Origin: a virus
Length of the DNA stretch: 64,000 nt
Direction: 5' to 3' (one strand)
IMG/VR virus record: IMGVR_UViG_3300044732_000737
Span: 1-64,000 of that record
Position numbers and translations under genes: made by a program. The notes beneath the pieces were generated by a model. It was not told the origin of the DNA. It worked only from the letters and a program-made list of their open reading frames with translations, and searched no databases. Numbering within the stretch: the stretch's first letter is position 1; the number at the start of each line of letters is the position of its first letter. Of this stretch, positions 7,211 to 59,275 are shown piece after piece.

Positions 7211-7324
7211 TATTATTCTGTTTTATCTTTTAAGAATTTGAGAAGATTGTTTGATACTTGTTTTCCGATTAAAACCCCGAATAAGAGTAAGAGTGTTGTA
7301 ATTATAATTATACTCCAATTTGAT
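7211..7324 (-). promoter_or_regulatory. RNA polymerase gene leader with two overlapping TATAAT boxes
   Basis: Between the upstream terminator and the RNAP start there are two overlapping minus-strand TATAAT hexamers (7307..7312 and 7301..7306). No good TTGACA-like -35 stands 16-18 bases upstream, so a host sigma-70 promoter is only possible. A hydrophobic frame (LLLLFGVLIGKQVSNNLLKF) also runs here but has no ATG, GTG or TTG start. The T7-type promoter motif is absent. Confidence 0.35.
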
Positions 7325-7368
7325 TAAAAAAGTGAACTCTGCCGCCCCCCGAAGGAGACGGCAAGTTC
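7325..7368 (-). terminator. Strong UUCG-capped intrinsic terminator
   Basis: On the minus strand the RNA folds into about 15 base pairs (GAACUUGCCGUCUCC against GGGGGCGGCAGAGUUC, one bulged G) closed by a UUCG tetraloop, followed by ACUUUUUU. It stands between the small membrane gene ending at 7372 and the RNA polymerase gene, so it should block upstream transcription from entering the polymerase gene. Confidence 0.9.
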
Positions 7369-7371
7369 GGT

Positions 7372-7518
7372 TCATTTTCGTAATAGCTCCAGTAAAGTGA
7401 AAGATACGCTCGAAAGCAGGATAACGATTGCTAAAAACAAAATGTATTTTGCAAACAAGGTAATAGCTGTAACTGCAAAAGCAAATATACAGATATACCA
7501 AATGCTCATACTAATCAT
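7372..7518 (-). CDS. Small membrane protein
   Basis: A 48-residue protein, MISMSIWYICIFAFAVTA..., almost entirely hydrophobic with one or two membrane helices and a short charged end (LLELLRK). The ATG at 7518 is eight bases after AAGGA; an in-frame ATG at 7527 is possible but sits on the ribosome site. It overlaps the end of the preceding membrane-protein gene and stops four bases before the terminator. Function unknown. Confidence 0.6.
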   Translation of the reverse strand: MISMSIWYICIFAFAVTAITLFAKYILFLAIVILLSSVSFTLLELLRK

Positions 7519-7699
7519 TTCTTTCATCCTTTTTCCTTATTTTTAAATGAGAGAATACCACACCAGCAATACCCCATAAGGTAGTCATCACTAACAATGT
7601 AATTAGCGTCTTAACAATGGTTGATAAGACAACTAAAGAATACATTGAAGTAAGTAAACCTATAAAGGATATCACTGCTAGGATGGATAACGAAATCAT
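7511..7699 (-). CDS. Small membrane protein, two helices
   Basis: A 62-residue protein starting MISLSILAVISFIGLLTSMY, with hydrophobic segments at about 1-28 and 30-50 and a basic tail KIRKKDERND that would face the cytoplasm. It overlaps neighbours on both sides by a few bases, as expected in a coupled operon. Not recognised. Confidence 0.7.
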   Translation of the reverse strand: MISLSILAVISFIGLLTSMYSLVVLSTIVKTLITLLVMTTLWGIAGVVFSHLKIRKKDERND

Positions 7700-7794
7700 T
7701 TAACTGGCCTTCCTAAATAAGCTAAAACAAAAGCTACTGTATATGTAACTGCATAGTACATAATAGGTAACAAGAAAAAGCTCAAGATTGACAT
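7696..7794 (-). CDS. Membrane micro-protein (32 residues)
   Basis: The frame reads MSILSFFLLPIMYYAVTYTV... and ends GRPVK, with its TGA overlapping the next ATG. A single hydrophobic helix fills most of it. An AAT-rich ribosome site (AGGAAATAAA) precedes the start. Small, but coupled to its neighbours and fully open. Confidence 0.55.
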   Translation of the reverse strand: MSILSFFLLPIMYYAVTYTVAFVLAYLGRPVK

Positions 7795-7795
7795 T

Positions 7796-8029
7796 TTATT
7801 TCCTAATAGTGTTAACATGACCGATTTGTTTAAATCGTTGATTAACTAGTCGCATTGGATTGGCTTTCCAATGATCAAGTTCTTCACCGATTTTATTGAA
7901 GAATTCCAGACTATGTGGTTCATGGCGAACTTTAGCATAGTTGAAAATCTCTTTACTGACTTGGTAGACATAGCCTTCCTCATCAGCAATCTTTACATCA
8001 GAATAGGCAGGTGGACATTTAGTACACAT
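7796..8029 (-). CDS. Hypothetical protein
   Basis: A 77-residue soluble protein, MCTKCPPAYSDVKIADEEGYV... . The N-terminal C-x-x-C might bind a metal, but there is no second pair. A CGGAG ribosome site precedes the ATG. Not recognised. Confidence 0.7.
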   Translation of the reverse strand: MCTKCPPAYSDVKIADEEGYVYQVSKEIFNYAKVRHEPHSLEFFNKIGEELDHWKANPMRLVNQRFKQIGHVNTIRK

Positions 8030-8030
8030 T

Positions 8031-8285
8031 TTAAACTCCGAGTTTTTTATCTACAAAGACTAAGTCTTCAATAGCTTTGAAAATCCTACGAAAGTCTTCA
8101 GCAGACTCTGTAAGGACAGAAGCTACAGTTTCTCCACTCATGTATGCTGATTTAACATCATACAAAGAAGGAGACACTACAGCCTGCAAGAAGTCGTCAT
8201 ATACAGTTACTTCAACAGAGTCGAAGGCATTGTACTGAACAGCTTCTATAGTATAATCACCAGCTTTTAAAGTTAGTCTAGGCAT
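8031..8285 (-). CDS. Hypothetical protein
   Basis: An 84-residue protein beginning MPRLTLKAGDYTIEAVQYN, predicted mixed beta and alpha. Two bases separate it from the gene before. No family recognised. Confidence 0.7.
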   Translation of the reverse strand: MPRLTLKAGDYTIEAVQYNAFDSVEVTVYDDFLQAVVSPSLYDVKSAYMSGETVASVLTESAEDFRRIFKAIEDLVFVDKKLGV

Positions 8286-8287
8286 AA

Positions 8288-8533
8288 TTAATTCTCAAAT
8301 ACTTGATCGTAAATTGTACTGAATTCAATAATAGAACCATCAAGCTGAACTTCATTACACATTCTCTCAATTAGATCTTTAGAGTAACTTGTAGCATAAA
8401 TTGCTGGTATACCCTTAGTGTCATTTGAGAAAATATATGTGAGGCCAAACTCTTCTAATGATTCAATTACTTCTTGTGCTGTAGTTCCAAAGTTATCCCC
8501 ATAAAGAGGATTCAACAGTAAGTACCTAGGCAT
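8288..8533 (-). CDS. Hypothetical protein
   Basis: About 81 residues beginning MPRYLLLNPLYGDNFGTTAQ. I prefer this ATG because AAGGAAA stands five to six bases before it. An in-frame ATG at 8581 (MNSNSNRIKEL), which overlaps the previous stop as ATGA, is the alternative and would add 16 residues. Not recognised. Confidence 0.6.
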   Translation of the reverse strand: MPRYLLLNPLYGDNFGTTAQEVIESLEEFGLTYIFSNDTKGIPAIYATSYSKDLIERMCNEVQLDGSIIEFSTIYDQVFEN

Positions 8534-8577
8534 AGACTTTCCTTTATCAAGTTCTTTGATTCGATTTGAGTTACTAT

Positions 8578-8697
8578 TCATACTATTACAATCTCCACTA
8601 GTTCTGGAAGATATGCTTCAAGATCTTTTAGATTAGTTGTCTTAGTAATCAAGTAACCGCTTTTCTTAGAATACACGTAGTACATTACTTCAGTCAT
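8578..8697 (-). CDS. Micro-protein (39 residues)
   Basis: Reads MTEVMYYVYSKKSGYLITKT and ends LPELVEIVIV. A clear AAAGGAAT ribosome site stands upstream, and its stop overlaps the ATG at 8581. It looks like a small soluble alpha/beta peptide. Function unknown. Confidence 0.6.
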   Translation of the reverse strand: MTEVMYYVYSKKSGYLITKTTNLKDLEAYLPELVEIVIV

Positions 8698-8847: not shown

Positions 8848-8874
8848 TATCTTTTAAGATATTCTTCTATTATA
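8848..8874 (-). promoter_or_regulatory. Possible early promoter region with TATAAT and small hairpin
   Basis: Between the fibre-operon terminator and the first RNAP-operon gene the minus strand has a perfect TATAAT (8869..8874) but no good -35. Just downstream is a 5-bp hairpin (TATCT-TAAA-AGATA, 8848..8861). The T7-type motif is absent. A promoter is expected here by layout; which polymerase would use it is unknown. Confidence 0.35.
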
Positions 8875-8900
8875 GATACGTCATTTTTCTCACTTTTTTT

Positions 8901-8936
8901 TTGATAAAAAAGGCCACCCTTTTTACGGGGTGACCA
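8901..8936 (-). terminator. Intrinsic terminator after the tail-fibre operon
   Basis: Minus-strand stem GGUCACCC / GGGUGGCC (8 bp with one G-U), loop of about eight bases, then UUUUUU. It follows the stop of the DUF6447-like gene at 8943 by seven bases and closes the structural region. Confidence 0.9.
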
Positions 8937-25359: not shown

Positions 25360-25384
25360 TCTCTCTTTAGCGTCCCCTGGTAAA
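25360..25384 (-). promoter_or_regulatory. T7-type phage promoter P2 with hairpin leader
   Basis: Minus-strand CAGGGGACGCTAAAGAGAGA, with a TTTAC run before it. By alignment to T3/T7 (CTAAAGGGAGA) the transcript starts at G25365. The first RNA bases contain CCUAGG-CUCC-CCUAGG (25342..25357), a six-base-pair hairpin. It drives the GNAT-fibre operon. The predicted leader before the ATG at 25329 is only about 36 nt. Confidence 0.88.
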
Positions 25385-32823: not shown

Positions 32824-35800
32824 TTACCTTAATCCTTTCTCTCTATTGTGGGAGTTAACCCCCTCAGCAATAGATGGGAGCATTCTATAAATTTCCGATT
32901 TTGTTTGACGACTAATATCGCCTGTAATATTTAGATTAATTACTTGTTGATTTTGATTAGACATTGCAGAAGCAACTCTAGCTTGTTGGGCCTCATTTAG
33001 GATAACTTCACCTGCATGAGCAAGTACTGGAGTAGCACTACCCATGTTGCCAGGAATAACACCACCAGCAGCAAATCCAGGCAAGAAACTAAAGAAAGAG
33101 CTAAGACCAGAGAATCCTTTACTAAAGAAATCTCCAATACCACTTCCAAAGACCTTCAGTTTATCTGCGAATCCACCTAGTATACCATCTTTATTACCTA
33201 TCAGACCTTCAAGTCCTTGAGTAATTTTTACATACATTGGTTTTGCTTCAGAAGAGCCTAGCTCTCCAAATATACTTGTACCTAAAGATTGACCTAAGCT
33301 TTTACTAATATCCCTAAATAAAAAGTCACCTATTTGATTAGAAAAGTTATCTATAACCGTGTTACTAAAAGCGTCAAAGAATGCTTTACCGGCATTATCC
33401 TTGCCTTTCAAAATGTCAGAGATTAAAGTCTTTCCTTGACCCAAGAAAGCTTGTTGTAATGATTGTTGACGAGATCTTTCGTCAGTAATTTGTCTTTCTT
33501 GTTCAATTAAAACAGCTCTTCTAGCAATTAGTCCTTGTAAAGTTTCACCTTCAAGTAATTGATTGTTACTAATTTTCTCGTTTAGTTTGTCTAATTCAAT
33601 TCTATCTTTAATTAGCTTATTCTTTTTAGCCTCATCAAGACCTAAAATAACGGTAAGATCTAACCCAAGTAATGCAGCTTGTTTGCCTAAAGTATTCGCA
33701 GTAAGTAGTTCTTTTCTTTGTCTTTCAAGATTCTTCTTACGTTGTTCTGCCCTAGCCCTCTCATCTAGATTAGCCTGAGTAGCCCCTTTAGTTTGCAAGT
33801 TCTTGATCTTCTCTTCTTCGTCAATTATCTTCTTAGTCAATGCAAGGATATTTTCTCTTGTTTTTGCATCATAAGATAAATAATCAGCTAAATCAATATT
33901 TAAAGAGGCTAATGCGTCTTTTAATGATAACCCTAGTAATTTACTTGCTTCCTCTGTTTTGGCTTTAATTGTTGCTTTATTCTTAGAGAAATCAAGTAAG
34001 TTAGCCAATAAAGATTTGCTTGGATCATATTTTTGATCTAATGCAGTTTCAATATCTTTAGATATTGCAGTAATTTTACCTATAGTTTCTGCAGAAAGTT
34101 CTCCAAAAGATTTATCTAATAAATCAGGAGAAAACCTAAATAATTCCGTAAATGTATTGTTTAAAGTTTTAGGGCTAACTTTATCATCAAATTCTTTAAT
34201 CTGTTTATCTAAAGTTTCTTTAAATTCTCCAGCCTTAACTAAATCAAGTGGTAACCCAGTTTTACTTTTTGGTAAGCTATTAATATTACTAATAGTAATA
34301 CCAATTTTAGTTAGATCATTAATTACTTCAGTTAAAGGTATTTTAGATTTAATTACATCATCTATCTTTGATTTGACATTTGATTTATTAAGCTGATCTT
34401 CTAAATTCTCTAAGGCAGTCTTTTCTTTCTCTTTTGGCTTAGGTGTAAAACCTTCACGAATTTTTCTAATTTCCTCGGTTACTACCTTACCCCTAGCAGC
34501 AATTTGTTTTCTAACTTTATCTAAATCACCTCTACCCCCTACTGTTGTATTTTCAATTTGTGAGGCTTGTAGTTGTAATTGATTAGCTTCAGTTATTAAG
34601 CTTACTAATTTTTGTTGATCCTTAAGCGGAGCAGAGTAAATTTTACTAAAATCAGATAATGCATTAAAGTTAAGATTAAGCAATGCATCCGCAAATCCAC
34701 TAGAAGCTGCCTTTGCTTGGTTTAATTGGTAAGTAATACCTACAGTCTCTAGTCTAATTCTTTGAGCTAAACTTTCTGCTTTCTTAAAATCTTCACCTAT
34801 TCTTGCTGCTTCTAATTCTTTAGTTAATACACCAACATTTCTAATTCTATCGTATAATGCCGTAAATTGGCGCTCACCTAAGTTTAACAAGTCAACCCAA
34901 TTAACACCAGAAATATTTGCAGTTTTTAATGCTGTTTCTATTTGATACTTAATAGTATCAGAAGCACCTTTTTCTAACTGTAATGAGACATCAATTTTTA
35001 TATCAGAAATTGCTGCATTTATATTTGAGGCTTCAGTTGCATCTTTGGTCTTAAGTAGCTGGGCTTGTAACTGTTTTAGCTTCTCAACTTTATCTTTTAG
35101 TCCAGGAAGATCTTCAACATTAAACACACCGTTTGCATCGTAGGATATTTTTAGAGCATCTAAATTTTCTTTAAGATTTTTAATGTCCCCTTGAAATACT
35201 GTAACTTCAATATTACGAACTTTAACATCTCTAGCACGAGTAGCAACTGCAGCATAATCTTTTACAGCCTTTTCTAATTCTTCTTTTGCCTGTTGGATAT
35301 CTGCTCTCTGTTGAGCCCTTTCTTCAGGAGAAAGAAAGAATCCACGGAATCCTTCTGCATTACGAAGATTTTTGAGTGCCTCATCTCTTGCTTGCGCTGT
35401 TTTATTAATAGAAGCAACAAGTTGTTGTCTTTCTTCTCCTAACAAATCCCCTTTACCAATATCCGCAAATTCTTGAAATGCAAAATCAATTAATGCTGCT
35501 GAGTCAATAATGTCTTGACCTAAATAAGATACATCTGTCCTAATACTATTAGTTAACCTTTTGCTCCAATCACTAAAAATTTCAGCTGATTGATCTCCAT
35601 TTAAAATTAAACCTATTCTTTGACCAAAGTTAGTAAAGAATCCATAAGCAATGTTTGCATCAAATAGTTCATTGAATGGAAATGCAAAGAAGTTATAGAG
35701 CGCATCTAAAGGATAAGCAACCACTCTAGCTAATGCAGAAGTAGCAACCTGACTTACCTCAGCAGCTAATTTTAATATAGACTTCTCAACTTTTGCAGGT

Positions 35801-38800
35801 TCTGCTTTAAAGTTTAAAGTAGCAATTCTAGCATCAAAGGCAATATCTTGCCCTTGGGTTTTGCTAACTCTTTCACTAAACTTTTCATATCTATTTAATA
35901 AAGTTTCTATTTGCTTTGTTGTCTTCTCTGAAACTTCACCAAGCTCTTTTGATTCTTCTTTAGCTGCGCCTATAGATTTTTCTATAGCTTTTGACAAACT
36001 AGTAAACTCACTTACATCTTTTGGATTAATGTATTTTAAAGAAATTTGATCAGAAGAATTATTAAACTTAGTTGATAACTCAGGATTAATTTGTTTTAGG
36101 TTATTAGAAATATTAGTTGCACGTTTGCTAAACTTTTCAAACTGGCTAAATTCTTGAATAGCTCTTGGTATTGCTTCCTTTATACCTGTAGTAAACTCAA
36201 TCAAGGTGTTAGTTGTTTTTCTTAAACCATCACTAAACTTTTCTGTGAATGTGTCCCCATCACCAATAGTATAAATTAAAGCTCCAAATAAAGTAATAAC
36301 CCCAGTTGCTGCTGCTGCAGTACCTGTTAAAATAGGTATGAGTCTAGCTAACCAAGATACTTTATTCGAAGGGCCCATTAGAGCTGCATCTTTTAATAAT
36401 CCAAATTGTTTTAACACAAACTCAAAAGCCTTTGAGACGCCTGCACGAACAGAAGAACTACTTAGTAAAAACCATCCTAGTAAACCGCCTTCTAAAGCAT
36501 AATTAGATACTGTAGCAGCAATGTCCATTACTCCAGCTTTTGCTTCAGTAGTAAATAAAGTAATTAATGCACTTAATGCGATTACTGTACCTGCTTTACC
36601 GAATAATATTTTTCCGATTGCGCCTGTAGTTCCAAAAGTAGCGCCTAAACCCGCTAGTCCAGTAAATTTACCTTTTACAAACTCTAGGAATAAGTCTAGT
36701 TCCGCCTTTATTTTACTAGCTGCATTTAGCCCAGTAGCAGAGTTTAATATTGTATTTTTACTTACATCATTAGCTGCTTCTTTAGCAATACTACTTGCAG
36801 TGTTAACATAACTACCAAATGAATATGTTACTCCATCTGGTTTAGAACCAAGTATGAGGGCTTTTAGTAAGGAATCACCTGTCTTTGTAGCAGATGCAGC
36901 CTTATCTGCAGATTCTTTTGCTGTCTTAGTGAAATTACTAAACATATCTTTATCCATGCCAGCACCAGCCATTGAGAAGTCAGCAGCAGTAAAGCCACCT
37001 TTCATTCCTGCCTTTGGTCCAAAAATAAAATCAGATAAGGATAGTCCACCAGCTAAGAAAGATTTCTTACGTTCTTCATCAGTTACCCTCTTAATACCAG
37101 TAAACAATTTAGCAATTGTTGACTTTGCATTAGTTAGAATAGTTCCAGCAACGGTGCCATTATCAAATAATCTGGCAAACATATTTTGTAATACTGAACT
37201 ACCTGCAGTTTGTGCAGTGATCATTGCTGTAATCTTTAAAAGAATACTCCTGACAGTATCAACTAGAATTTTACCGGCTACATCTCTACCTAAAATTGCA
37301 GTAAGTAAAAGTGGTGTTGCAACAAATGCGGCCTGTACAAAGTTTACTTCTTTTGTAAATACAGAGAGCAAAGCTGTAATACCGGCTACAGCGAAAGCGA
37401 CATCAACCTTATCACCAAACACACGTTTAATAATTGATTCTTGTGTAAGTTTCTGTGTAGCGCTAGAAGATAAGATACCTCCTAATCCTTTGCTAACTTC
37501 TGAAATTTGTTTTGTAATTTGATCAAAACCAACAACTCCAAATATCATTAAAGGTAAAATCCCAGTTTCACCTAATGTTAAAAGATTTAAAATACCTTTA
37601 ATACCATTACCAATAAGACCTAAATCACCTAGGAATTCGTTAATAAAACCTGAGCTAAAGCTTATGATTGCTCCGATAATAGAAGGGATTTCTTCAACAG
37701 CACCTTTTAATAAAGTTGCAAGAGTAGAACCTAAGTTCTTACCAATTTCACCAATGATTGAAAAATCAAAAACAGAGGATAATCCATTTTCTAAAGCAGA
37801 ACCTAAATTCTTTGCTAGATTAATTCCTAATACAGCAACAAAAGTAGATAATGCTGCGGGACTAACTAAAGAGGCAATAATGCCACCAACAACGGCAGTA
37901 GACGCAACCCTAGCTGCTTTTTCTAATGAATCAGAATTAATTGATAACGTGTCTGTAATTTGTCCGCCAAAGTCACCAAAAGAAAAATCTTTCCTTGATA
38001 GGTTACTAAATAAGTTTATTACGGAAGAACTAAAAGCTTTTATTTTCCTGGTACCCTCAGATACTAATTTATCTGACCAGTCCAAAATTCCTTCTACCAT
38101 GTCTGGCCAGTAAGAACGACCAACTACTTTATCGTAAATATCGAAAAATACCGCTTTAACTTTAATTCCAAAGGCACGAATATCAAGATACACATTGTTT
38201 AAAAGTTTAGTATACTTGTCTATTCTTTTTACACTCTCCTCATAATATCCAGCGTACTGTAGCTCAATCCCAAGGTTATGCCTAGCTCGCATTCCAATAC
38301 CTGCAGCCGCCCTAACTAGAGCTGCATTACCTCTTCCAACTTGTTCAGTTGCTGATTTATAAAAACCAGATAAAGAGGAAAATAAATTTGAGGAAAAAGA
38401 AGAACTTAAAGCATCTTTAAATTTAATACCAAAAGTAATAAATAGTCTTAATGTGTCATCAAGTAAAGTTATAATTGAGTTTTTAACTGCCTTTGTAGAT
38501 ACTTGAAACCCTGTTGCAAATTTGTTTATGTTTAAAAGTCCAATTGATGAAACCATTAGCACTAAACTATTTGTAACACTTACAGCAAACTTCTCGGTGT
38601 ATGCGGAAAATCCAGAAAGGCTAAAGATAAATCGGCCAATAGTATTTGACACGTTACCTAATACACCTCCAAATGACCTTCCTAATTCAATTAAATATGA
38701 ACCAACAGATTGTGTTGCTAACTGGAAAGCAATAATAAATTTTTGGAAAATGACTGCGCCTAGTCTGTCAAAGAGTCTTATTATTTCAGATACATAATCT

Positions 38801-40191
38801 CCAATTGCTTTTATTTTGTCAAATCTCACATTGCCAATAACAATTAATTTATTTTCTAAAAGACCTAGACTAGCTAAGAATTCTCTGAATGGCATTAGGA
38901 ATTTAACAATCTCTCGATAGTTTAAGGCATCTAATAATGCTGTACCAATCTCTACGTCACCTGAAAGTATTTTCCACCATCCTTGTAGACTAGTCAAGTC
39001 TGGGTCTTTAATTACTTGCACAAGATTAGCAATATTCTTTTGTAGTTCAGGTATAGATTTTGACAAGGCTATTCTTGATATTGCATCAAAAAAGTCAGAT
39101 TTATAATCTACGCCAAAGAATTGTAATGTTCTTCTAAATACAGCTGCAGTTGCTGTCAATACGCTTTTTAACCTTATAGACTCTTCTGTATAAAGTTTTA
39201 GGAATGCAATATTTAGATTAGCACCTAATTGAAGTTGTAAAAAGGATACAACTGGAATTAATCTTTTAATCTCAATACTTAATTGAGCAAACAATGGAGC
39301 TACTGATCTACCTAAATCTGCTGCAGTATCAATTGTGTTTTGAATACTAGCGGAAATAATAACTGCAGAGGTAACTATTGCATTTCTATTTTCAGCTATA
39401 ATATCTGCTGCTACACTAATTGCTTTAGCTATTCCAGGAGTTGTTCCTGTTTCAGTAAAAATTTCACCTAAAGTTAGTCCCGATATGTTTCTTATTTTTA
39501 ATAAAGATTGACTAATTGTTAATCCTACTTTTTCAAATTCAGCAGAGATTTGTTTAGATTGACTAGATAGTGCATCAAAAATAGCTTCGGTAGTTACTTT
39601 ACCTTCTTGAGCTAAAGCACGAAGCTCTCCAAGGCTTACCCCTAGGCCATCTGCGATAGCTCTAGCGAGTCTAGGTGTTTGTTCAAATACTGAGTTAAGC
39701 TCTTCTCCACGGAGAGTGCCTGACTGTAAACCCTGATTAAGCTGGGTTAAAGCTGCTTTAATAGAGTCTGCAGAACCACCAGAGACAATGCTTGCCTTCT
39801 GAATAGTATCTGTAATTTTTAAAATTTCACTAGAAGGCTTTTTAAGAGATTTTGCTAATCCCGAAAATACTTCTGTCGTTGATTCAATGCTTGTTCTTGT
39901 GTTTTGGGATATCTTAACAAGTTCTTGTTGAACTCGAATAAGCTCGCCCATATTATCTATACTTAATGAAAGTCTAGAATTTAATTGAACAAAAGAATCA
40001 GAGGTTTTCTGCACAACAGCTGCAAAGCTGAATCCTGCAACAACTCCTGCAACGCTCTTAGCGAGAGAGGCAATCGAATCTGCTGTCGATTTTGCTGTAT
40101 TCTCAATACCTTGGACTGACTTATTCAGTTTATTAAGGTCACGCTGGGCCTGTTGAGAATCAGAAGATATCGTAAATTGAATATCTGACAT
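32824..40191 (-). CDS. Tape measure protein (2455 residues)
   Basis: Residues about 60-240 hold the tape-measure domain (RLARAIADGLGVSLGELRAL, then GKVTTEAIFDAL). Long helical stretches and several hydrophobic segments (for example ALSTFVAVLGINLAKNLG and AAAATGVITLFGALIYTIG) fill the middle. The C-terminus has the common GFAAGGVIPGN...VLAHAGEVILNEAQ motif. It sets tail length and is ejected through the tube. AAGGAGAAATC precedes the ATG. By the usual 1.5 angstrom per residue the tail would be about 350 nm, long for a siphovirus. Confidence 0.95.
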   Translation of the reverse strand: MSDIQFTISSDSQQAQRDLNKLNKSVQGIENTAKSTADSIASLAKSVAGVVAGFSFAAVVQKTSDSFVQLNSRLSLSIDNMGELIRVQQELVKISQNTRTSIESTTEVFSGLAKSLKKPSSEILKITDTIQKASIVSGGSADSIKAALTQLNQGLQSGTLRGEELNSVFEQTPRLARAIADGLGVSLGELRALAQEGKVTTEAIFDALSSQSKQISAEFEKVGLTISQSLLKIRNISGLTLGEIFTETGTTPGIAKAISVAADIIAENRNAIVTSAVIISASIQNTIDTAADLGRSVAPLFAQLSIEIKRLIPVVSFLQLQLGANLNIAFLKLYTEESIRLKSVLTATAAVFRRTLQFFGVDYKSDFFDAISRIALSKSIPELQKNIANLVQVIKDPDLTSLQGWWKILSGDVEIGTALLDALNYREIVKFLMPFREFLASLGLLENKLIVIGNVRFDKIKAIGDYVSEIIRLFDRLGAVIFQKFIIAFQLATQSVGSYLIELGRSFGGVLGNVSNTIGRFIFSLSGFSAYTEKFAVSVTNSLVLMVSSIGLLNINKFATGFQVSTKAVKNSIITLLDDTLRLFITFGIKFKDALSSSFSSNLFSSLSGFYKSATEQVGRGNAALVRAAAGIGMRARHNLGIELQYAGYYEESVKRIDKYTKLLNNVYLDIRAFGIKVKAVFFDIYDKVVGRSYWPDMVEGILDWSDKLVSEGTRKIKAFSSSVINLFSNLSRKDFSFGDFGGQITDTLSINSDSLEKAARVASTAVVGGIIASLVSPAALSTFVAVLGINLAKNLGSALENGLSSVFDFSIIGEIGKNLGSTLATLLKGAVEEIPSIIGAIISFSSGFINEFLGDLGLIGNGIKGILNLLTLGETGILPLMIFGVVGFDQITKQISEVSKGLGGILSSSATQKLTQESIIKRVFGDKVDVAFAVAGITALLSVFTKEVNFVQAAFVATPLLLTAILGRDVAGKILVDTVRSILLKITAMITAQTAGSSVLQNMFARLFDNGTVAGTILTNAKSTIAKLFTGIKRVTDEERKKSFLAGGLSLSDFIFGPKAGMKGGFTAADFSMAGAGMDKDMFSNFTKTAKESADKAASATKTGDSLLKALILGSKPDGVTYSFGSYVNTASSIAKEAANDVSKNTILNSATGLNAASKIKAELDLFLEFVKGKFTGLAGLGATFGTTGAIGKILFGKAGTVIALSALITLFTTEAKAGVMDIAATVSNYALEGGLLGWFLLSSSSVRAGVSKAFEFVLKQFGLLKDAALMGPSNKVSWLARLIPILTGTAAAATGVITLFGALIYTIGDGDTFTEKFSDGLRKTTNTLIEFTTGIKEAIPRAIQEFSQFEKFSKRATNISNNLKQINPELSTKFNNSSDQISLKYINPKDVSEFTSLSKAIEKSIGAAKEESKELGEVSEKTTKQIETLLNRYEKFSERVSKTQGQDIAFDARIATLNFKAEPAKVEKSILKLAAEVSQVATSALARVVAYPLDALYNFFAFPFNELFDANIAYGFFTNFGQRIGLILNGDQSAEIFSDWSKRLTNSIRTDVSYLGQDIIDSAALIDFAFQEFADIGKGDLLGEERQQLVASINKTAQARDEALKNLRNAEGFRGFFLSPEERAQQRADIQQAKEELEKAVKDYAAVATRARDVKVRNIEVTVFQGDIKNLKENLDALKISYDANGVFNVEDLPGLKDKVEKLKQLQAQLLKTKDATEASNINAAISDIKIDVSLQLEKGASDTIKYQIETALKTANISGVNWVDLLNLGERQFTALYDRIRNVGVLTKELEAARIGEDFKKAESLAQRIRLETVGITYQLNQAKAASSGFADALLNLNFNALSDFSKIYSAPLKDQQKLVSLITEANQLQLQASQIENTTVGGRGDLDKVRKQIAARGKVVTEEIRKIREGFTPKPKEKEKTALENLEDQLNKSNVKSKIDDVIKSKIPLTEVINDLTKIGITISNINSLPKSKTGLPLDLVKAGEFKETLDKQIKEFDDKVSPKTLNNTFTELFRFSPDLLDKSFGELSAETIGKITAISKDIETALDQKYDPSKSLLANLLDFSKNKATIKAKTEEASKLLGLSLKDALASLNIDLADYLSYDAKTRENILALTKKIIDEEEKIKNLQTKGATQANLDERARAEQRKKNLERQRKELLTANTLGKQAALLGLDLTVILGLDEAKKNKLIKDRIELDKLNEKISNNQLLEGETLQGLIARRAVLIEQERQITDERSRQQSLQQAFLGQGKTLISDILKGKDNAGKAFFDAFSNTVIDNFSNQIGDFLFRDISKSLGQSLGTSIFGELGSSEAKPMYVKITQGLEGLIGNKDGILGGFADKLKVFGSGIGDFFSKGFSGLSSFFSFLPGFAAGGVIPGNMGSATPVLAHAGEVILNEAQQARVASAMSNQNQQVINLNITGDISRQTKSEIYRMLPSIAEGVNSHNREKGLR

Positions 40192-41557: not shown

Positions 41558-41583
41558 TCTCTCTTTAGCGTCCCCTGGTAAAA
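41558..41583 (-). promoter_or_regulatory. T7-type phage promoter P3 with hairpin leader
   Basis: Minus-strand CAGGGGACGCTAAAGAGAGA identical to P2 over the core; start G41563. The first RNA bases (GAGAGAUCUGAGGCCUCCCC, then UAGGUA) nearly copy the P2 leader and can form a GAGG/CCUC stem. It splits the structural region between tail tube and tail chaperone genes. Confidence 0.88.
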
Positions 41584-43427: not shown

Positions 43428-44519
43428 TTAAGCGTGGAGAATAGGTAGAATACCTAAGTTCAATGCGCTCATCTTACGTGCCCATGAACCAGCAGTGGCA
43501 TAATTAGCGTTGCTAGCGAAGGCATTAGTAGCGCCAGCCCAGTCGTAACCCATTGGGTGTACAACGAAACCATAGCGATACCAGATAGCGGTAGAACCAC
43601 CACCAGTATAAGAAGCAGCTGAACGATCAACTTCAACAGGTGTAGGAACAGCAATGTTTGTAAAGCTGATAGCACCTGGCTTGCAGATGAATGTGGTCTT
43701 TACAGAACGGTCATTTACGTTAGCAGAGGCAGACAAGTCACCTTGAGCAACACGGCTCAAGATCAAACGGAACTTACCACCGAACACGGTTTGGAATGTC
43801 AAGTTACCATCGGTAACAGTTGTGACATCAACCAAGTTAGCAGCACGCAACTCAGCCAACACTTCAGGTGAAGTGATCATGTACATGAAGTCTGGCTCAT
43901 AATCCTTAAAGCCCATACCTAGAGCTTGGAATAAACGCTGACCACGAGCAGCACCAATAGCTGTAGCGTCAAACAGCTTACGCTGATCAGATGCAGAAGT
44001 AGCAGCAGCACCAAAGGTACCGGCAGCGTTAATATCTACGAAGCTACCAACACCAGCGCCATCAGCGTCTGTGTCATAACCAACGATACCAGCACCACGA
44101 GAAACTTCGTATGCAGCTACACCTTTAAGTGTGGCGATAACGGCATCAGACTCGTCTTGGCTACGAACTTCAGAGAAGTCACGAGCAATCTTAGAGAGGC
44201 CATCTTGTTGTGAAACAACTTGTTGTAGATTGACTTGCTCAGAACCAAAGGTACGAACTGTCTTAATGTAGTCAGCAATTTCGGTAGACACATCAGTGTA
44301 AGTACCTGCATTGGCGACAGAGAGGCTAGCAACGTTAATGTTAGCTGCCAAAGGCTTGTACCAGCGCATTTGACCAATGAAGCTTTCGCCTGTTGGGTCA
44401 ATACGGGCATCAGTACCAACGATGCCAGTGCTGTTAAGCTTCTTGGCATTTGTGTACATTTCGTCAGCGTATGCAGAAATAGCAATAGCTACGTTTTGGA
44501 ACATTGTATGATTAATCAT
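43428..44519 (-). CDS. Major capsid protein
   Basis: A 363-residue protein, MINHTMFQNVAIAISAYADEMY... . Ala- and Gly-rich with an ordered C-terminal domain (FVVHPMGYDWAGATNAFASN, then ARKMSALNLGILPILHA). It follows the scaffold and has the best ribosome site of the region (CACAGGAGATTTTTTAA). Size and position support an HK97-fold shell protein without a fused delta domain. Confidence 0.85.
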   Translation of the reverse strand: MINHTMFQNVAIAISAYADEMYTNAKKLNSTGIVGTDARIDPTGESFIGQMRWYKPLAANINVASLSVANAGTYTDVSTEIADYIKTVRTFGSEQVNLQQVVSQQDGLSKIARDFSEVRSQDESDAVIATLKGVAAYEVSRGAGIVGYDTDADGAGVGSFVDINAAGTFGAAATSASDQRKLFDATAIGAARGQRLFQALGMGFKDYEPDFMYMITSPEVLAELRAANLVDVTTVTDGNLTFQTVFGGKFRLILSRVAQGDLSASANVNDRSVKTTFICKPGAISFTNIAVPTPVEVDRSAASYTGGGSTAIWYRYGFVVHPMGYDWAGATNAFASNANYATAGSWARKMSALNLGILPILHA

Positions 44520-44539: not shown

Positions 44540-45235
44540 TTAAAAGGTGAAGCTACCAAGCTTTCCACCTGCGGCAAGTGCTAACACTTCCTCGGTGGTC
44601 ATTTCAGTAATCTTCTTGTTGGGATCGAGTTTGGGAGTACCGTTCATATTGTTACTACCACCCCCTGAATTAGATTTAGGTTTAAATAGGAAGGAATTAT
44701 CTTCATTCTTCACATATTGTCCTACAAAATCTTTGATTGATACACCTGATTTATGAATCCATGCACCAGTCTCTGGATCTTGGATGAGTTGATCGATAAT
44801 ATCACGATAAGCCATTTGGCTAGATCGGTCATTACGGAAATCAAGGTTAGTTAATGCATTGCGAACTGCACCATCTCTAGTGAGTTCAGTTACTTTGCTT
44901 TCGGCCAACGCAAGCTTCTCAGTGAGTTCTGCGAGCTTCATCTCAGCAACTTCTTTATGCTTACCTTCGTCCTCCAAAGCTTTCATCTTACGTTGTTTAG
45001 CTTCATCTTCTAAACGAACACGCTCTTTAACAGCATTGTCACGTTCTTGATATGCTTTATCTAAACTAACTTTAATTTTAGAAAGACGCTCTTCAACCAA
45101 ACGGTTAATCATGTCTTCTGTATCTTTGTTGTTAGTACCGCCTCCACCAGTATCAACCTGATCGGCTTGAAACTCTGGGTTAGGTGTGGTACCATCATCG
45201 AGGAACTCTTTGTTTCCGAACTTATCTACTTTCAT
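44540..45235 (-). CDS. Capsid scaffold protein
   Basis: A 231-residue protein with a disordered Gly-rich start, a long coiled coil (about residues 45-115, EERLSKIKVSLDKAYQERDN and on), then RDGAVRNALTNLDFRNDRSS and a C-terminal part (DFVGQYVKNEDNSFLFKPKS) typical of scaffolds of the DUF4355/gp20-like type. It precedes the capsid gene. Confidence 0.85.
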   Translation of the reverse strand: MKVDKFGNKEFLDDGTTPNPEFQADQVDTGGGGTNNKDTEDMINRLVEERLSKIKVSLDKAYQERDNAVKERVRLEDEAKQRKMKALEDEGKHKEVAEMKLAELTEKLALAESKVTELTRDGAVRNALTNLDFRNDRSSQMAYRDIIDQLIQDPETGAWIHKSGVSIKDFVGQYVKNEDNSFLFKPKSNSGGGSNNMNGTPKLDPNKKITEMTTEEVLALAAGGKLGSFTF

Positions 45236-45301: not shown

Positions 45302-48300
45302 TTACGGTCCAATACCATACCAATCCATACCTTTAGGTATAGGAGCTAGTATATCTTTTCTCGTAATTTTGTTGCGAGGATTTAGTAAGCCATCCTCAAT
45401 AGCTTTTTGGCGAAGTCGATTGTATGTTTCATTTGACATACCTTCTTCTTTTAGTGCCAGTAATGTTTTCTCTATTGTCTCACCTTCTAAAGCATCTGCA
45501 TAGATTTCTCTAAGAGCTACTTTGGACTTTGCTGCTTGTCCTATGTTGGTGAAGAAAGCATCGTGAATCGTTGCGGTTTCAATACCACTTTTACGACCCC
45601 ATAAATGAAATCTTCTTACAATAGCGGCATCATTCATGTGGTTACCGTTAACCCCCATGCCAATGCCAGCCCTTTGGAGGCTTGATTTTCCTAGAAGTGA
45701 AGCATCTTCTGCTCGATCTTCGTAAATATTACGGACCATCCTGTTAGCTTCTTTGTCATAGAACTCAATGCTAGTTTGGATTTTAGGTCTGTATCTCTGG
45801 TATAAAGTCTTACCATCAAATGTTACCCAAGGTACATCGACCTTCTGAGTTTCATCAACGTAAGCTTTAGCAGCTTCTTTCCAGAATTGTACGAATTTTT
45901 GAGTTACTGGTGCTCTCTCAGCTAGTCTCCGAGACATAATCTCTGACACTGCCTTGAAGTCTTGAGGACCAATTAGTCCCTTACGAGCATTCATTAACTT
46001 ATCGACAAACGCTTCTACGTCTGGGTGAGAATCACGAGCGTGTGCTAAAAGTTCTTGCCCCACAGAGGTTTCACCTTCAACAACTTCGTTTAACTCACGT
46101 TTTAATTGTTTAAGACCAAATACGACATTTTCAGCTCCTAGCCTATCTGCCTCTTTAATCTTTGCATCTATAATATTAGTTACTCCACGAAGTTCTTCAC
46201 GGGTAACAACAGTATATCCTTTTGTCTCTAACACTGAAGCAAACTTAGCTTCAATATTAGCTGCTTGTGTTGCTTTACCTGCACCATAGAAAGAAACCAT
46301 GTTTTGTGCTTTTGCAGCCTTTTGAAGATCTGTCCACTGAACATTAGCATCTCTCAATCCTTGTATTTTCTGAAACTCTGGATCAGACACTGTATCCATA
46401 GCTACTAAGTCATACAAACGATTTTTTTGTAATGTAGGTAATACGTTTGAGTTGATTGAAATATCTCTATCCCCAGTACTTAATCCGATGATCTGAGCAC
46501 CAGAGGATGAAGCATCATTCTCAATCATTAATTTTGTCTTATATGTCGCTAGTTTATTTACATCAGTAAAGTCACCACCTACATGATCATATATACGAGC
46601 ATACTCAATAGCTAGTCTGGAGATTTTTGGAATCTCTTCTGCCTCAGTAGCTCTGATAATAGGATGCTCTAGAAATTCCCTGATACGCCTATCACGTTGG
46701 GTAGTTTCCCTCATTAGGCGACCTAAACTTAAAATATCTCTTTGATTTCTCATAAAGATTTCCATCCGACCTGCTTGTGTTAACGCCTCAGTAGCTGGAC
46801 CAATCATAGAACCAGTTTGAATCATTAACTCCTGAACAATTTCAGGTGTAACGGCCTCTGCCTTAGCAGTATTCAAGAACGGACGAACAACTTCACCACC
46901 AGTAGGTGTTAAGAAACCTTGATAGTAAACACGACCACGACCATCGATATTAGCAACAACGCTAAATGGCTTTCCAGTATCTCGATGATACTTTACAGTC
47001 TGCATAAAGCTATATCCCTGATCTCCACGAGTCAAAATAAGTTTTCTAAAGTCATTTAAGTCATCATACTTTTTTACATTTCCACGAGGATCTCTAAAGC
47101 GAACAACATCTTCCATAAATCCAGCATACTCATTATCAACCTCATATTTCACTGACATTGTGTGATTAAGCATATCAGCAAAATCACGATCAATTAGTAC
47201 TCTGTCATAATTAGCATTAGCTCTACGTGTAATAATCGGAATACCTGTGTTATTGCCTCTAGCATCAAAATAAGTCTTAGCTCCAGGTCTTACATAAAGC
47301 TTATCTCTATCAGAGTTAATACCAATTCGTTTTGCTAATAAAGCACTACGATTAGCCCTTTGTAAGTTGAGCATATCTTTATTTAAGATCTGAACTTCAC
47401 GACTAACAGTATCTCTCCAAGGACCACTAGCACGACCAGTCTCAAGATCAACAACTGATCTCCTAGTCTTGCCACGCATAAGTACACGGATGTAGCCTTT
47501 GTCTTTTAATGCTGTAAGAATCTGCGATCCATCAGCATGGTAGTCTTGTAGTGTAGGCTTAAAGAATGGGAAGTCTGCGACATTCCAAGATTCTCTTAGT
47601 GTTTTACCTACATTAATTGCCAATGAATCGTAGTCAGTTGACTTACCATCAGCAACAACAGTCAATACCTTTGATAAGGTATCAATTGCTTTCTTGTCGT
47701 TTAAACCGCCCTCTACTAATTGATTTAAATAACTTTGTCTTCGTTTACCGAATAAAAACTCTAAGTCCACAATCTTACGATAGTCTTCTCTTCTGTTTCT
47801 TAAGAATTCATCAATTAATCTTTCACTAGGTACTTTGTCTTTAAAAAAGAGTTTAGCTCCAGGAACATTACTTAACAAGAATTTAACTACTTTGTCTTTG
47901 AAGTTATCAACACCAATTCTGGGAGCACCTCTAAACCAAGTATATACAGGAGTTCTTCCAGTATAATACAAAGATCTAGCTAATGGCCTACCTTCTGTAG
48001 TAGCCCAATTACGAACATAACGTTGATTATCAATATTATTTTCGATAATCTCGTCAAATGTATAGTACTTACCAAAGATCTGAACTTTAGCTGGCTCTCC
48101 AGCGACCCCATAAGAATCAAACTGCTGAGATCTAGCTCTTGATCTACGATCTAAAATACGGCTTGTGTTAACTACAGAATATTGCATTTCACCACGAGTA
48201 ACATTCATAAAGTTAACCCATGGTTGCTTATCGTTATTGTATCGCTCAAAAATAACACGTAGATTCTCTGCAATAGCAGTCTGTTGATTTACAGATACTG

Positions 48301-49720
48301 AATCATCTAAGCTTTCAACGAATTGTTGAATCCATGCTTTTTGTTCTTGATTAAGAGCCTTAGAATTTTTAATAAAGTCTATACGTTCTTGTAATACATT
48401 AAAGTCTGGATCATAAAGTAAAGTAGAACTTTGTTCGCCTGTGAAAGGATCAAAGCTATTGTTACGTTCATCAAACTCATTGTTTGCTCTAATTCGAACT
48501 GATCGTTTACCTGCTAGAGTAGTACCACGATAATCTACTAAAGAAATAGTCTGAGCAGTATTCTCAGTGTCTGCAATATACATTGCCTTTAACTGTTTAG
48601 TAGCCTCTGTATTCCTCATTAGTTCATATGGTCTAGCCACATTAATTGCAAACAGATTAGACTCTGCCTCGGCTACAGCTGACTGCCTAGTTGGGAAGAA
48701 ACTTGTTCTTGCATTATCAAGCTTCCTTAATGCAGCAATGCTTAGTTGTTGACCTTTAGCAGTCGTAAATGCTTTTACATCCAAAATACCTTTCTGTAAT
48801 AGTCCAGCACGCTCCTCACTACCTAGATGTTTAACTTGAACCATCATAGGCTGGCGCTTAAGCCAAGAACCGTAAGTTTCTACTGGTGGTAAACTACCAT
48901 CAACAAGTTTTTCAGAAGTTTCTCTTAGCTTGTTAACCTTTACTCTTGTATCTTTTGCCTCAGCAGCTTTTAATAGTTCTTCTTTGTTCTTTAAAACAGG
49001 AACCATAGAGCTACGGCAATTCCAGTGAAGTGGTGGTCTAAATCTTAGATCATCAATCTTGTATACTTGGCCATCATGGTGTGCACAGACTCTTGAAGTT
49101 CTATTGTCTAGTACAGCAGTAAATCTGTAACCTTTTAAAACCTCTTTATTACGATCCATTACTAAATTAAGCGCTTGTGCTTGTGTATTAGTAATAGCAG
49201 TCCTAACTAAAACCTTAGCCTGAACCTCAGTCAGGGTGGTTGTTTTAATTACATCTGAAATAATTTCTTTTACTGGCTTATTGTCTGCTAAACCAGATTT
49301 AATCTTTCCATCAATCCTAGCAAGTTCACTCGTACCAACAGTATCAAAGTGATCCCTTAAGCTTTTGGATGCTGTAATGTTAGGTCCAATAAGTTTAGGA
49401 ATAGCATCACTACCCCTAGGCTTTTGAACTCTGAAGAATGAACCAGCACTCTTCTCTAAATTGTTAGCATGAAAGCTTACAGAGGCATCTGCATAGTCAC
49501 TAACTGAATTGCTAGCAATCATGTGCAACTCTTTTGTTGCTCGAGTTACCTCTGGCTTTACATCGGCCTTAATGTTCTTTGTTAAGAGTACTCTAAGGCG
49601 CTTTTGATGTCTACGAATGCCCCTACTTACATTAGTGGAGGTCTCCGCTTCATATAGTCTTGTATCAGCTAAGTGCTGTACAATTCTGTCATAAATTTCC
49701 GTATTAATAGGAGTTGGCAT
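45302..49720 (-). CDS. MuF head protein fused to a single-subunit RNA polymerase (1472 residues)
   Basis: The start (MPTPINTEIYDRIV) is chosen because AAGGGG precedes ATG 49720. Residues about 165-245 form a MuF domain: ITNTQAQALN, LDNRTSRVCAHHDGQVY (D205, C212) and PPLHWNCRSSMVPV. From about residue 430 on comes an RNA polymerase module with D926-x-x-G-R930 (NIDGRGRVYYQG), motif A D1069 (ENDASSSGAQ), motif B K1137-x7-Y1145 (KAQNMVSFYGAG) and motif C H1386-D1387 (ATIHDAFFTN). All key T7/N4 residues are kept. B-to-C spacing of 250 is nearer N4 vRNAP than T7 (about 180). MuF proteins are internal virion proteins beside the portal, so a virion-carried RNAP is inferred. Confidence 0.9.
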   Translation of the reverse strand: MPTPINTEIYDRIVQHLADTRLYEAETSTNVSRGIRRHQKRLRVLLTKNIKADVKPEVTRATKELHMIASNSVSDYADASVSFHANNLEKSAGSFFRVQKPRGSDAIPKLIGPNITASKSLRDHFDTVGTSELARIDGKIKSGLADNKPVKEIISDVIKTTTLTEVQAKVLVRTAITNTQAQALNLVMDRNKEVLKGYRFTAVLDNRTSRVCAHHDGQVYKIDDLRFRPPLHWNCRSSMVPVLKNKEELLKAAEAKDTRVKVNKLRETSEKLVDGSLPPVETYGSWLKRQPMMVQVKHLGSEERAGLLQKGILDVKAFTTAKGQQLSIAALRKLDNARTSFFPTRQSAVAEAESNLFAINVARPYELMRNTEATKQLKAMYIADTENTAQTISLVDYRGTTLAGKRSVRIRANNEFDERNNSFDPFTGEQSSTLLYDPDFNVLQERIDFIKNSKALNQEQKAWIQQFVESLDDSVSVNQQTAIAENLRVIFERYNNDKQPWVNFMNVTRGEMQYSVVNTSRILDRRSRARSQQFDSYGVAGEPAKVQIFGKYYTFDEIIENNIDNQRYVRNWATTEGRPLARSLYYTGRTPVYTWFRGAPRIGVDNFKDKVVKFLLSNVPGAKLFFKDKVPSERLIDEFLRNRREDYRKIVDLEFLFGKRRQSYLNQLVEGGLNDKKAIDTLSKVLTVVADGKSTDYDSLAINVGKTLRESWNVADFPFFKPTLQDYHADGSQILTALKDKGYIRVLMRGKTRRSVVDLETGRASGPWRDTVSREVQILNKDMLNLQRANRSALLAKRIGINSDRDKLYVRPGAKTYFDARGNNTGIPIITRRANANYDRVLIDRDFADMLNHTMSVKYEVDNEYAGFMEDVVRFRDPRGNVKKYDDLNDFRKLILTRGDQGYSFMQTVKYHRDTGKPFSVVANIDGRGRVYYQGFLTPTGGEVVRPFLNTAKAEAVTPEIVQELMIQTGSMIGPATEALTQAGRMEIFMRNQRDILSLGRLMRETTQRDRRIREFLEHPIIRATEAEEIPKISRLAIEYARIYDHVGGDFTDVNKLATYKTKLMIENDASSSGAQIIGLSTGDRDISINSNVLPTLQKNRLYDLVAMDTVSDPEFQKIQGLRDANVQWTDLQKAAKAQNMVSFYGAGKATQAANIEAKFASVLETKGYTVVTREELRGVTNIIDAKIKEADRLGAENVVFGLKQLKRELNEVVEGETSVGQELLAHARDSHPDVEAFVDKLMNARKGLIGPQDFKAVSEIMSRRLAERAPVTQKFVQFWKEAAKAYVDETQKVDVPWVTFDGKTLYQRYRPKIQTSIEFYDKEANRMVRNIYEDRAEDASLLGKSSLQRAGIGMGVNGNHMNDAAIVRRFHLWGRKSGIETATIHDAFFTNIGQAAKSKVALREIYADALEGETIEKTLLALKEEGMSNETYNRLRQKAIEDGLLNPRNKITRKDILAPIPKGMDWYGIGP

Positions 49721-49765: not shown

Positions 49766-51391
49766 TTATACAGTGTTGTCGTTGTCATCGTCCCTATTAT
49801 TAGGGCGCATATTATCTGTGTCTGAGATAGAAGAATCTATGCTCATTGCCTTAGTGTCTACTAGAGGGTCACTCTGGATCTCTGCTATGCCATCTTCATC
49901 GTTGTACTCAGCTGGGAGCACATCATTGAACTTAGCAATAGAAATAAATGTAGAACGTGGAATAATACCTTGCTGGTACCACTCTGTAACTAGTCTCATC
50001 CAGTCTGCGCCTACTGGTGTAGGATTAAAGTCAGCACTTAATGTGAACTTAATATCTGTTGGAAGAACATCAATATTGTATTTCCACTTAAGCATTACTG
50101 TAATAATCTGTCTCATTGTCTCTGAGATACGAGTATTGAGCATACCTAGTTGGGCAGTCTGAGCAGCATTACGGATTTCTAGACTTACGCCTGACTCACC
50201 TGAAGAGCCCTCTGGTGAAAGCATACGAATGCCCATACGAGCCATTTCTTCAATAGTAGCCGCAATAGCTTTTTCCATATCTGCTAAAGCGCCTGTTGGA
50301 GTGTCCAATGCTCTAATGTCGTCTCCAGCACGGAGCTTAATCCATGAGCCAAGACCTGCCTCTACAATAGTTTCAAACTCTTCATCAGTCATATCTGACA
50401 TTACTACTGGAGTGTATGTAGCTGCACCATAAAGTAAGTGATTACGTCGGCTAATCTTGTTGTACAAGGCAATCTCACGATCAATCAATGATTGTAGGAT
50501 TGGTTCAACAGGGTCGATCTGACCATTCAATGGATAGGCAGGAATGAAGTTCATTCTCTCACCGTTCATCAAAGGTACTTCTGTACGTGTCTTTACCCAT
50601 GCTGCATTAGCATTGTCTGTTTGATACTTGGATGTAACATTACCATTAATAACGCTTACAGACTCATTAGTGTCTCGTGTGTAAGTATCTACGACAAGCA
50701 GTCCTGACTCATCTAAATAATAGTGAGTAACAGTGTCTACATAGTCTGGGTGGAATTCATTTTTAGAATAGTCTTCCATGTAGTAACGGAAAAGTAAACT
50801 TGTTAATACTTGTTTGTTAGTATTACGGTCTTGACCCCTACGCCAGTTAATAATGTTCTCTGCTTGAATGAGCATTACATATGGGGACAAAGCCTTGGCC
50901 TCTTCCATAGTGAGAGCGTCTGGATTAGCTACTGTAGGGTAGTCTACCAAACACCAAGCCCTAGAAGACTGTAGCTCTTCCCATATAGCCGCATCTAAGA
51001 AACCATGTAGTGAAGTACCATCAGCACCAAAAGAAGTACGAATCCAGTCTTCAGTTCCTTCAGGAAATACATTCTCTGGAAGCTCAATAGCTGCTTGCTT
51101 ACGTAATAAGCCGCCTACAAGAACCTTAGCATACTGTGCTGTTAGTCCAGGAAGCTCACCCTCAGCACGATAAAAGTTGTACTGTTGCGAACTCATTGTG
51201 GGAGAGAAGGGTAATAGTAAGTTATTGTACGTTACAGTATCAATTGAGTCATCATATGCTCTTGCATGAGTCTGTCCATTAAGAACAGCTCTAGCCCTCT
51301 CCCAGAGAGGCCGCATAGACTCATATGCTGCGTTAGGATCCCCAAGGCTCTTCGTCTTAGCCTTTGATGGGGTCGTTGTTAGGTTTGCCAT
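49766..51391 (-). CDS. Portal protein (DUF4055-like)
   Basis: A 541-residue protein. AAYESMRPLWERARAVLNGQ and LPGLTAQYAKVLVGGLLRKQ near the start, a stem region around LIDREIALYNKISRRNHLLY, and EEMARMGIRMLSPEGSSGES are the plan of SPP1 gp6/DUF4055 portals. The dodecameric ring packages DNA and connects the tail. It stands between PhoH and the MuF-RNAP gene, the usual portal-MuF-scaffold-capsid order. Confidence 0.9.
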   Translation of the reverse strand: MANLTTTPSKAKTKSLGDPNAAYESMRPLWERARAVLNGQTHARAYDDSIDTVTYNNLLLPFSPTMSSQQYNFYRAEGELPGLTAQYAKVLVGGLLRKQAAIELPENVFPEGTEDWIRTSFGADGTSLHGFLDAAIWEELQSSRAWCLVDYPTVANPDALTMEEAKALSPYVMLIQAENIINWRRGQDRNTNKQVLTSLLFRYYMEDYSKNEFHPDYVDTVTHYYLDESGLLVVDTYTRDTNESVSVINGNVTSKYQTDNANAAWVKTRTEVPLMNGERMNFIPAYPLNGQIDPVEPILQSLIDREIALYNKISRRNHLLYGAATYTPVVMSDMTDEEFETIVEAGLGSWIKLRAGDDIRALDTPTGALADMEKAIAATIEEMARMGIRMLSPEGSSGESGVSLEIRNAAQTAQLGMLNTRISETMRQIITVMLKWKYNIDVLPTDIKFTLSADFNPTPVGADWMRLVTEWYQQGIIPRSTFISIAKFNDVLPAEYNDEDGIAEIQSDPLVDTKAMSIDSSISDTDNMRPNNRDDDNDNTV

Positions 51392-55390: not shown

Positions 55391-55424
55391 TGTAATCCTT
55401 TTGGCTAACGCCAGTTATAAAGAA

Positions 55425-55493: not shown

Positions 55494-55582
55494 CTAGTGA
55501 CGCCTTTTACTGTAGCGACAACAGCCCTAAGGTGGGTTCTTGCTGAATATCTCATGAACTTAATCACTTGACTATCAGATTG

Positions 55583-58629: not shown

Positions 58630-58654
58630 TTCTCTCTTTAGCGTCACCTGGTAC
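58630..58654 (-). promoter_or_regulatory. T7-type phage promoter P4
   Basis: Minus-strand CAGGTGACGCTAAAGAGAGA; one base (T for G) differs from P2/P3. Start at G58636. It follows a strong terminator at once and heads the packaging-lysis-head operon, with a leader of about 257 nt before ATG 58379. Confidence 0.87.
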
Positions 58655-59249: not shown

Positions 59250-59275
59250 CTTTCTCTTTAGCGTCCCCTGGTGGT
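59250..59275 (-). promoter_or_regulatory. T7-type phage promoter P5
   Basis: Minus-strand CAGGGGACGCTAAAGAGAAA, start G59256. The leader before the SleB ATG is only about 19 nt and contains its ribosome site. Located two bases after the stop of the upstream gene. Confidence 0.87.

Follow-up and report, generated by a model that had tools for sequence, protein, structure and literature searches.

Fusion gene and polymerase module

We analysed positions 1-64,000 of the IMG/VR virus record IMGVR_UViG_3300044732_000737 (full record 77,817 bp), hereafter the window, in which one gene at 45302..49720 (minus strand) encodes a fusion of a MuF head protein with a single-subunit RNA polymerase (RNAP). 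Nearly every gene of the record lies on one strand. The fusion gene shows the gene order of MuF/SPP1 gp7, in that it adjoins the portal gene inside the head module. The portal protein gene lies upstream (49766..51391, minus strand; phrog_145, E 2.5e-58), a scaffold-like gene adjoins downstream (44540..45235, minus strand; phrog_206, E 2.4e-11), and the major head protein gene is found at 43428..44519 (minus strand; phrog_247, E 1.8e-27). The tape measure protein is encoded by a gene separate from the fusion (32824..40191, minus strand; phrog_3519, E 1.1e-65), which indicates a long-tailed virion. Between portal and scaffold the fusion gene is a single unbroken frame, and this frame is not an assembly artefact, since 118 relatives from other assemblies hold the same complete fusion in one open reading frame (ORF). 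Residues are numbered here from the first ATG at 49738, which gives 1478 amino acids (aa); the true start is probably M7 at 49720 (1472 aa), since several close relatives begin there. An earlier sequence-only reading of this DNA counted from M7, so its residue numbers are 6 lower.

Residues 7-400 (48539..49720, minus strand) form a MuF/SPP1-gp7-like portal-binding module, as judged from sequence models and an AlphaFold model of residues 1-560. Both Pfam Phage_Mu_F (PF04233, residues 148-245, 7e-11) and NCBIfam phageSPP1_gp7 (TIGR01641, residues 146-248, 1.3e-15) matched above cut-off, and phrog_241 matched residues 46-437. In addition, the MuF signatures LDNRTSRVCAHHDGQVY and PPLHWNCRS are present. 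The MuF half gave no significant fold match in the PDB, and the assignment therefore rests on the sequence models. A flexible linker follows at residues ~401-445 (48404..48538, minus strand). In the model of residues 1-560 the predicted local distance difference test score (pLDDT) is <50 at 400-427 and 436-442, so that a disordered stretch of residues ~400-442 joins the two modules; the start of the polymerase model is also disordered.

The single-subunit RNAP module occupies residues 446-1478 (45305..48403, minus strand), as delimited by AlphaFold and Foldseek. All four catalytic motifs were located on this strand: DxxGR, D932-x-R934-G-R936 (46931..46945; T7 D421-R425), whose D, R and R are invariant in 54 relatives; motif A, D1075ASSSGAQ (46493..46516; T7 D537); motif B, K1143-AQNMVSF-Y1151-GAG, that is, K1143xxxM1147xxxY1151-G (46277..46312; T7 K631/M635/Y639/G640); and motif C, H1392-D1393 (45560..45565; T7 H811-D812). 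Motifs DxxGR, A and C were aligned with T7, and the last two are likewise invariant. Motif B was placed by its K-x3-M-x3-YG pattern, as the profile alignment misplaces it. The catalytic residues of the four motifs do not vary across the 54 sequences, with identity down to 31%, and the RNAP core shows a ratio of nonsynonymous to synonymous substitution (dN/dS) of 0.07-0.10, which indicates strong purifying selection. Pfam RNA_pol (PF00940) matched at 7e-7 (28.9 bits against a cut-off of 22) and the PHROG RNA polymerase family at 6e-23 for the fusion protein, and the control genomes gave zero matches in the PF00940 search.

The AlphaFold model of residues 430-1478 (pLDDT 79.7, predicted template modelling score 0.74) has the right-hand fold of single-subunit RNAPs. 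Foldseek matched it to T7 RNAP (1cez) at E 3.9e-19 and probability 1.00 with nearly the whole model covered, and mitochondrial RNAPs came a close second; template modelling (TM) scores against T7 RNAP were 0.42-0.50, and therefore the domains are shifted and subdomain placement is poorly reproduced. In a viral structure library, T7-like phage RNAPs (~1e-20) ranked ahead of N4-type virion RNAPs (~1e-11). In addition, the profile alignment (hhalign) of the module spans T7 residues 76-878. Since T7 RNAP was matched more strongly than the N4 virion enzymes, the module is T7-type rather than N4-type.

The sequence-only reading had recognised a complete single-subunit RNAP joined to a MuF head protein, and this description held, with both domains above curated cut-offs in one frame and every motif it quoted present in the translation. 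It had also placed the enzyme nearer to the N4 mini-virion RNAP than to T7 RNAP. The structure and profile comparison it suggested returned T7 RNAP, with the N4 virion RNAPs weaker, and the spacing of motifs B and C is the only feature that remains N4-like. N4 kinship found no support from phmmer, the profile search, hhalign or the Foldseek ranking, all of which put T7-type enzymes first; the N4 mini-virion RNAP went undetected by its profile, which consists of a single sequence.

Relatives of the fusion protein

The fusion is widespread. Scans of IMG/VR for further fusions, also proposed in the sequence-only reading, found at least 476 loci encoding a polymerase of the MuF-RNAP type. Three published genomes carry it as well, those of the roseophages DSS3_VP1 and DSS3_PM1, which are cultured, and of EBPR siphovirus 1, and in all of these the protein is annotated only as 'minor head protein-like', head or hypothetical protein. 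The DSS3_VP1 (QGH74596.1) and DSS3_PM1 (QGH74736.1) proteins are orthologues over the whole length, with 48.7% identity over 99%. Both phages belong to the Naomviridae, and the host of DSS3_VP1 is Ruegeria pomeroyi DSS-3. Core genes of the Naomviridae are common to the window phage and DSS3_VP1, namely MuF-RNAP (48.7%), a free RNAP (49.3%), DNA polymerase (38.8%), primase-helicase and ribonucleotide reductase. A large sludge/freshwater clade, ~30% identical to the window protein, surrounds EBPR siphovirus 1. A search of the genome collection gave no fused copy, which suits lytic phages, and prophage or cellular copies were dismissed after the one bacterial genome scan returned matches to the MuF domain only.

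Among 127 ORFs with both ends complete, 118 hold the whole fusion and nine have a break at or near motif B. In eight of these nine, an Rfam group I intron carrying an HNH ORF lies at or near the motif. Most of the motif B interruptions split the gene between KAQNMV and TFYGAG. This includes EBPR siphovirus 1, in which the orthologue is split into gp47/gp49 by an insertion within motif B that carries an HNH endonuclease gene (32% identity over 90%); at this same break site no Rfam match exceeded the threshold. A second group I intron was observed in one relative (L139:12771-13034), in the conserved VNG|NHSNDA stretch just ahead of motif C, and free-RNAP genes of the sludge clade also hold group I introns (L326:1643-1925, L327:2253-2451). 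In another MuF-RNAP (L322:1201-6117), ~150 additional in-frame residues, ParB-like by eye, stand just before motif A. The large terminase of DSS3_VP1 (L190, MN602266.1 4390-6410) is annotated in two parts, 4390-5385 and 5904-6410, separated by an ORF, and is possibly another interrupted gene.

Among phages that combine a related MuF protein with a related free RNAP, the nearest is the Pelagibacter phage Kolga, whose MuF protein has no polymerase. The Kolga protein (L328:2995-4896) has a C-terminal metallopeptidase-like domain with an HExxH motif (PF15890, 9e-5, below cut-off). Since this domain stands where the window phage has its polymerase, the cargo slot of MuF proteins seems to be exchangeable.

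Free RNA polymerase and two candidate promoter motifs

A second, unfused T7-like RNAP of 722 aa, presumably not a virion protein, is encoded at 5042..7210 (minus strand; PF00940 3.9e-80, phrog_414 1e-130), and a free T7-like RNAP was present in every reasonably complete related record checked. We saw no sign that the fused module arose by duplication of this gene, as hhalign scored the module at 105.8 against T7/P-SSP7 versus 72.7 against the free RNAPs (a comparison made without a tree). A strand-specific motif resembling the end of T3/T7 promoters, ACCAGGNGACGCTAAAG, occurs in five copies outside genes and is conserved in close relatives. All five lie on the minus strand, at 59256..59272, 58636..58652, 41563..41579, 25365..25381 and, with one mismatch, at 5020..5036 directly after the free RNAP gene; one weaker copy lies inside that gene. 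The DSS3_VP1 counterpart, ATAGGTTACGTTAAAGAAGG, occurs nine times, in each case upstream of the free RNAP gene and within the structural half of the record. These motifs are presumed to be the promoters of the free RNAP. Weaker motifs of widths 12 and 16, returned by an initial motif search, were dropped, since they resemble ribosome-binding sites or noise.

A different element, GTGAGAAAAATGACGTATCTATAAT, lies at 8867..8893 (minus strand) and is a candidate early promoter. It is the only window match to the 26-bp family consensus TGMGNAAAAnnnnGYATCTWWWATGA, for which 0.08 matches were expected. A terminator-like hairpin closes the upstream operon just before it (8912..8935, minus strand), and five small ORFs stand between the element and the free RNAP gene (7223..8581, minus strand; 8288-8581, 8031-8285, 7796-8029, 7511-7699 and 7223-7501), four of which were scanned and gave no Pfam match. 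The marine and sludge clades have the element in common, with identical 26-bp spacing and in sense orientation. In the marine clade it is nearly unchanged across 21 sites. The sludge-clade form is TGCGgaAAaannggGTATCTTATATGAaAg (40 sites), and its information content is inflated because the 40 sites were partly chosen on the core and TGCG.

The element follows the polymerases across records. The exact marine 27-mer was found in 13 IMG/VR contigs. Twelve of them share genes with the window phage; the remaining one is short but has the same terminator upstream. Across 12 records of the sludge clade that have a free RNAP, element matches were 33 sense versus 2 antisense, and all 12 have the element 1.7-7.3 kb upstream of the free RNAP. 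When records were retrieved by a 16-mer of the element only, all 18 with the upstream TGCG carried a single-subunit RNAP, most of the large ones also carried MuF-RNAP, and none of the seven without TGCG carried either polymerase. Copies in DSS3_VP1, TGAGAAAACTAAGGCATCTATAATGA, lie at 35796 and 36243 of that genome. In Kolga, the element was absent at up to 3 mismatches. The two promoter classes, the second RNAP at 5042-7210 and the large family are all absent from the sequence-only reading. The candidate early promoter shows no N4-type hairpin and is instead a sequence motif in double-stranded DNA; N4-like hairpin promoters seem unlikely, because the candidate sites share no stem-loop and only one of five tested folds moderately, the pairing of enzyme and promoter being presumed in this comparison.

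A candidate head-anchored virion polymerase

The best reading of the fusion is that of a virion RNAP, which would be injected and carry out early transcription, and the element is the best candidate for its early promoter, as suggested by sequence and distribution. We consider it quite probable that a MuF-fused, head-anchored virion RNAP starts a free-RNAP cascade from this element, with packaging, ejection, activity and the pairing of enzyme and promoter all presumed. Like SPP1 gp7, the MuF module would attach to the portal within the procapsid, and in this way the C-terminal T7-type RNAP would be packaged in a few copies. At infection, the fusion protein would exit through the tail together with the DNA. 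In the cell, the fused RNAP would transcribe from the double-stranded element at 8867-8893, which would drive expression of the few small genes and of the free T7-like RNAP. Once made, the free RNAP would use a different set of promoters of its own to transcribe structural genes and others.

Several observations weigh against this cascade. To pass through a long tail, a protein of 1472 aa must unfold. EBPR siphovirus 1, a partial record, gave no match to the element, and the single outgroup, Kolga, is distant (free RNAP 28% identical). Marine-clade copies of the element contain a perfect TATAAT and could therefore be read by host RNAP. In addition, the element co-occurs with both RNAPs, and therefore co-occurrence alone cannot tell which enzyme reads it.

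In T7-like phages, early genes are transcribed by the host RNAP. By analogy, the host enzyme might read the element as a sigma-70-type promoter, for which the TATAAT of the marine clade speaks, and the packaged MuF-RNAP might serve another purpose such as pulling in the genome by transcription. We regard this as unlikely: the element has no -35 box and a sigma-70 scan does not report the site; the sludge form has TTATAT instead of TATAAT, yet keeps the upstream block and the spacing; and Kolga has the same kind of free RNAP, with the element not found there. The Kolga result also speaks against the proposal that the free RNAP reads both promoter classes and that the action of MuF-RNAP is confined to late stages, such as replication priming or head assembly. 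In favour of this proposal, the element is tied no less strictly to the free RNAP than to the fusion, and in some fragments only the free RNAP is seen, but the free enzyme has a distinct promoter motif of its own and cannot be the first user of the element, because its own gene lies downstream; we hold this proposal to be improbable. A catalytically dead structural relic, or a domain that is cleaved off and left unpackaged, is very improbable given the invariant catalytic residues, the low dN/dS of the RNAP core, the introns at or near motif B and the retention of the fusion in two divergent clades.

The cascade from a MuF-fused virion RNAP resembles that of the Thermus phage P23-45, in which the virion RNAP gp96 is fused to the tape measure protein and gp64 is a free RNAP (PMC10770324). 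That cascade was shown experimentally, and its AT-rich early promoters are absent from relatives without the fusion (PMC10770324). Both are siphoviruses with an RNAP on a structural protein (in the window phage, a presumed virion component), a second, free RNAP among the early genes and two promoter motifs (PMC10770324), and in the window phage, judged against one outgroup only, the free RNAP gene is likewise preceded by a class of candidate early promoter seen only in phages with the fusion. The P23-45 enzymes, however, are two-barrel, cellular-type RNAPs (DxDxD), with the virion RNAP on the tape measure, a combination not found here, whereas those of the window phage are T7-type with the fused one on a MuF head protein, so that fold, carrier and virion location all differ. 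We infer a two-RNAP cascade like that of P23-45 from unrelated parts, in which the pairing of promoters and enzymes is presumed.

Other known systems share single parts. In SPP1, it is the portal that brings gp7 into the procapsid, and toxins fused to the C-terminus of MuF proteins are thought to be delivered in this way (PMC6316719, PMC5576092). The window protein likewise has a MuF module encoded after the portal gene with a C-terminal cargo, but the cargos described in these papers are toxins and other effectors (PMC5576092, PMC6316719) and here the cargo is an RNAP. The virion RNAP of N4 (gp50) and other Schitoviridae is also a single-subunit enzyme that is packaged and ejected, as presumed for the window protein, and has a longer motif B-C interval than T7 (PMC12633501, PMC5512222). 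In contrast, the N4 enzyme has ~3500 aa, comes from a short-tailed phage, lacks MuF and uses DNA-hairpin promoters; the window protein has 1478 aa and a fold nearer T7, and its closest match is not N4, as far as a single-sequence N4 profile can tell. A survey of polyvalent proteins found N4-like virion RNAPs confined to N4-like phages (PMC5512222). T7 RNAP and the phages' own free RNAP have the same fold and all catalytic motifs; MuF-RNAP differs from T7 RNAP in its low identity (~13% by structure alignment), its motif B-C interval (242 versus ~173 residues) and its fusion to a head protein.

It is fairly likely that these phages represent a separate class of virion RNAP, in which a T7-type enzyme is anchored in the head through its fusion to MuF and has a double-stranded early promoter of its own, in siphoviruses independent of host RNAP from entry. 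Both virion RNAPs and MuF cargo fusions have precedents; what appears to be new is their combination, with a T7-type enzyme and an early promoter found across the family. No description of MuF-RNAP was found in the open-access literature, a search outside which the paper describing the DSS3 phages lies, and to this extent the statement in the sequence-only reading that no described system of this architecture is known still stands. The combination of polymerase and carrier comes with a specific promoter sequence and with two cultured phages, DSS3_VP1 and DSS3_PM1, that hold all the parts. If the proposed role is correct, a large group of environmental siphoviruses may begin infection without host RNA polymerase, MuF cargos would extend from toxins to transcription machinery, and a new promoter-polymerase pair would become available for in vitro use. 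Together with P23-45 and N4, it would also point to repeated evolution of a 'bring your own RNAP' strategy via unrelated polymerases on different ejected proteins.

Several further features of the genome were observed. A PhoH-like gene (window 51392-52117) lies immediately upstream of the portal gene, and the packaging region of DSS3_VP1 has one too. A transfer RNA (tRNA)-like gene with a UUA anticodon, which would read the UAA stop, lies at window 55424-55494 (minus strand) and is conserved in a relative (L197:15522-15592); despite this gene, TAA is the commonest stop codon (66 of 91 called genes). DSS3_VP1 has deoxyuridine DNA (PMC12697855), and with this phage the suitability of the fused enzyme to such a template becomes testable. 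Beyond the window, at record 76526-76852, a dCTP deaminase homologue has 37.5% identity to the DSS3_VP1 enzyme used for deoxyuridine DNA, and the DNA of the window phage may likewise be modified.

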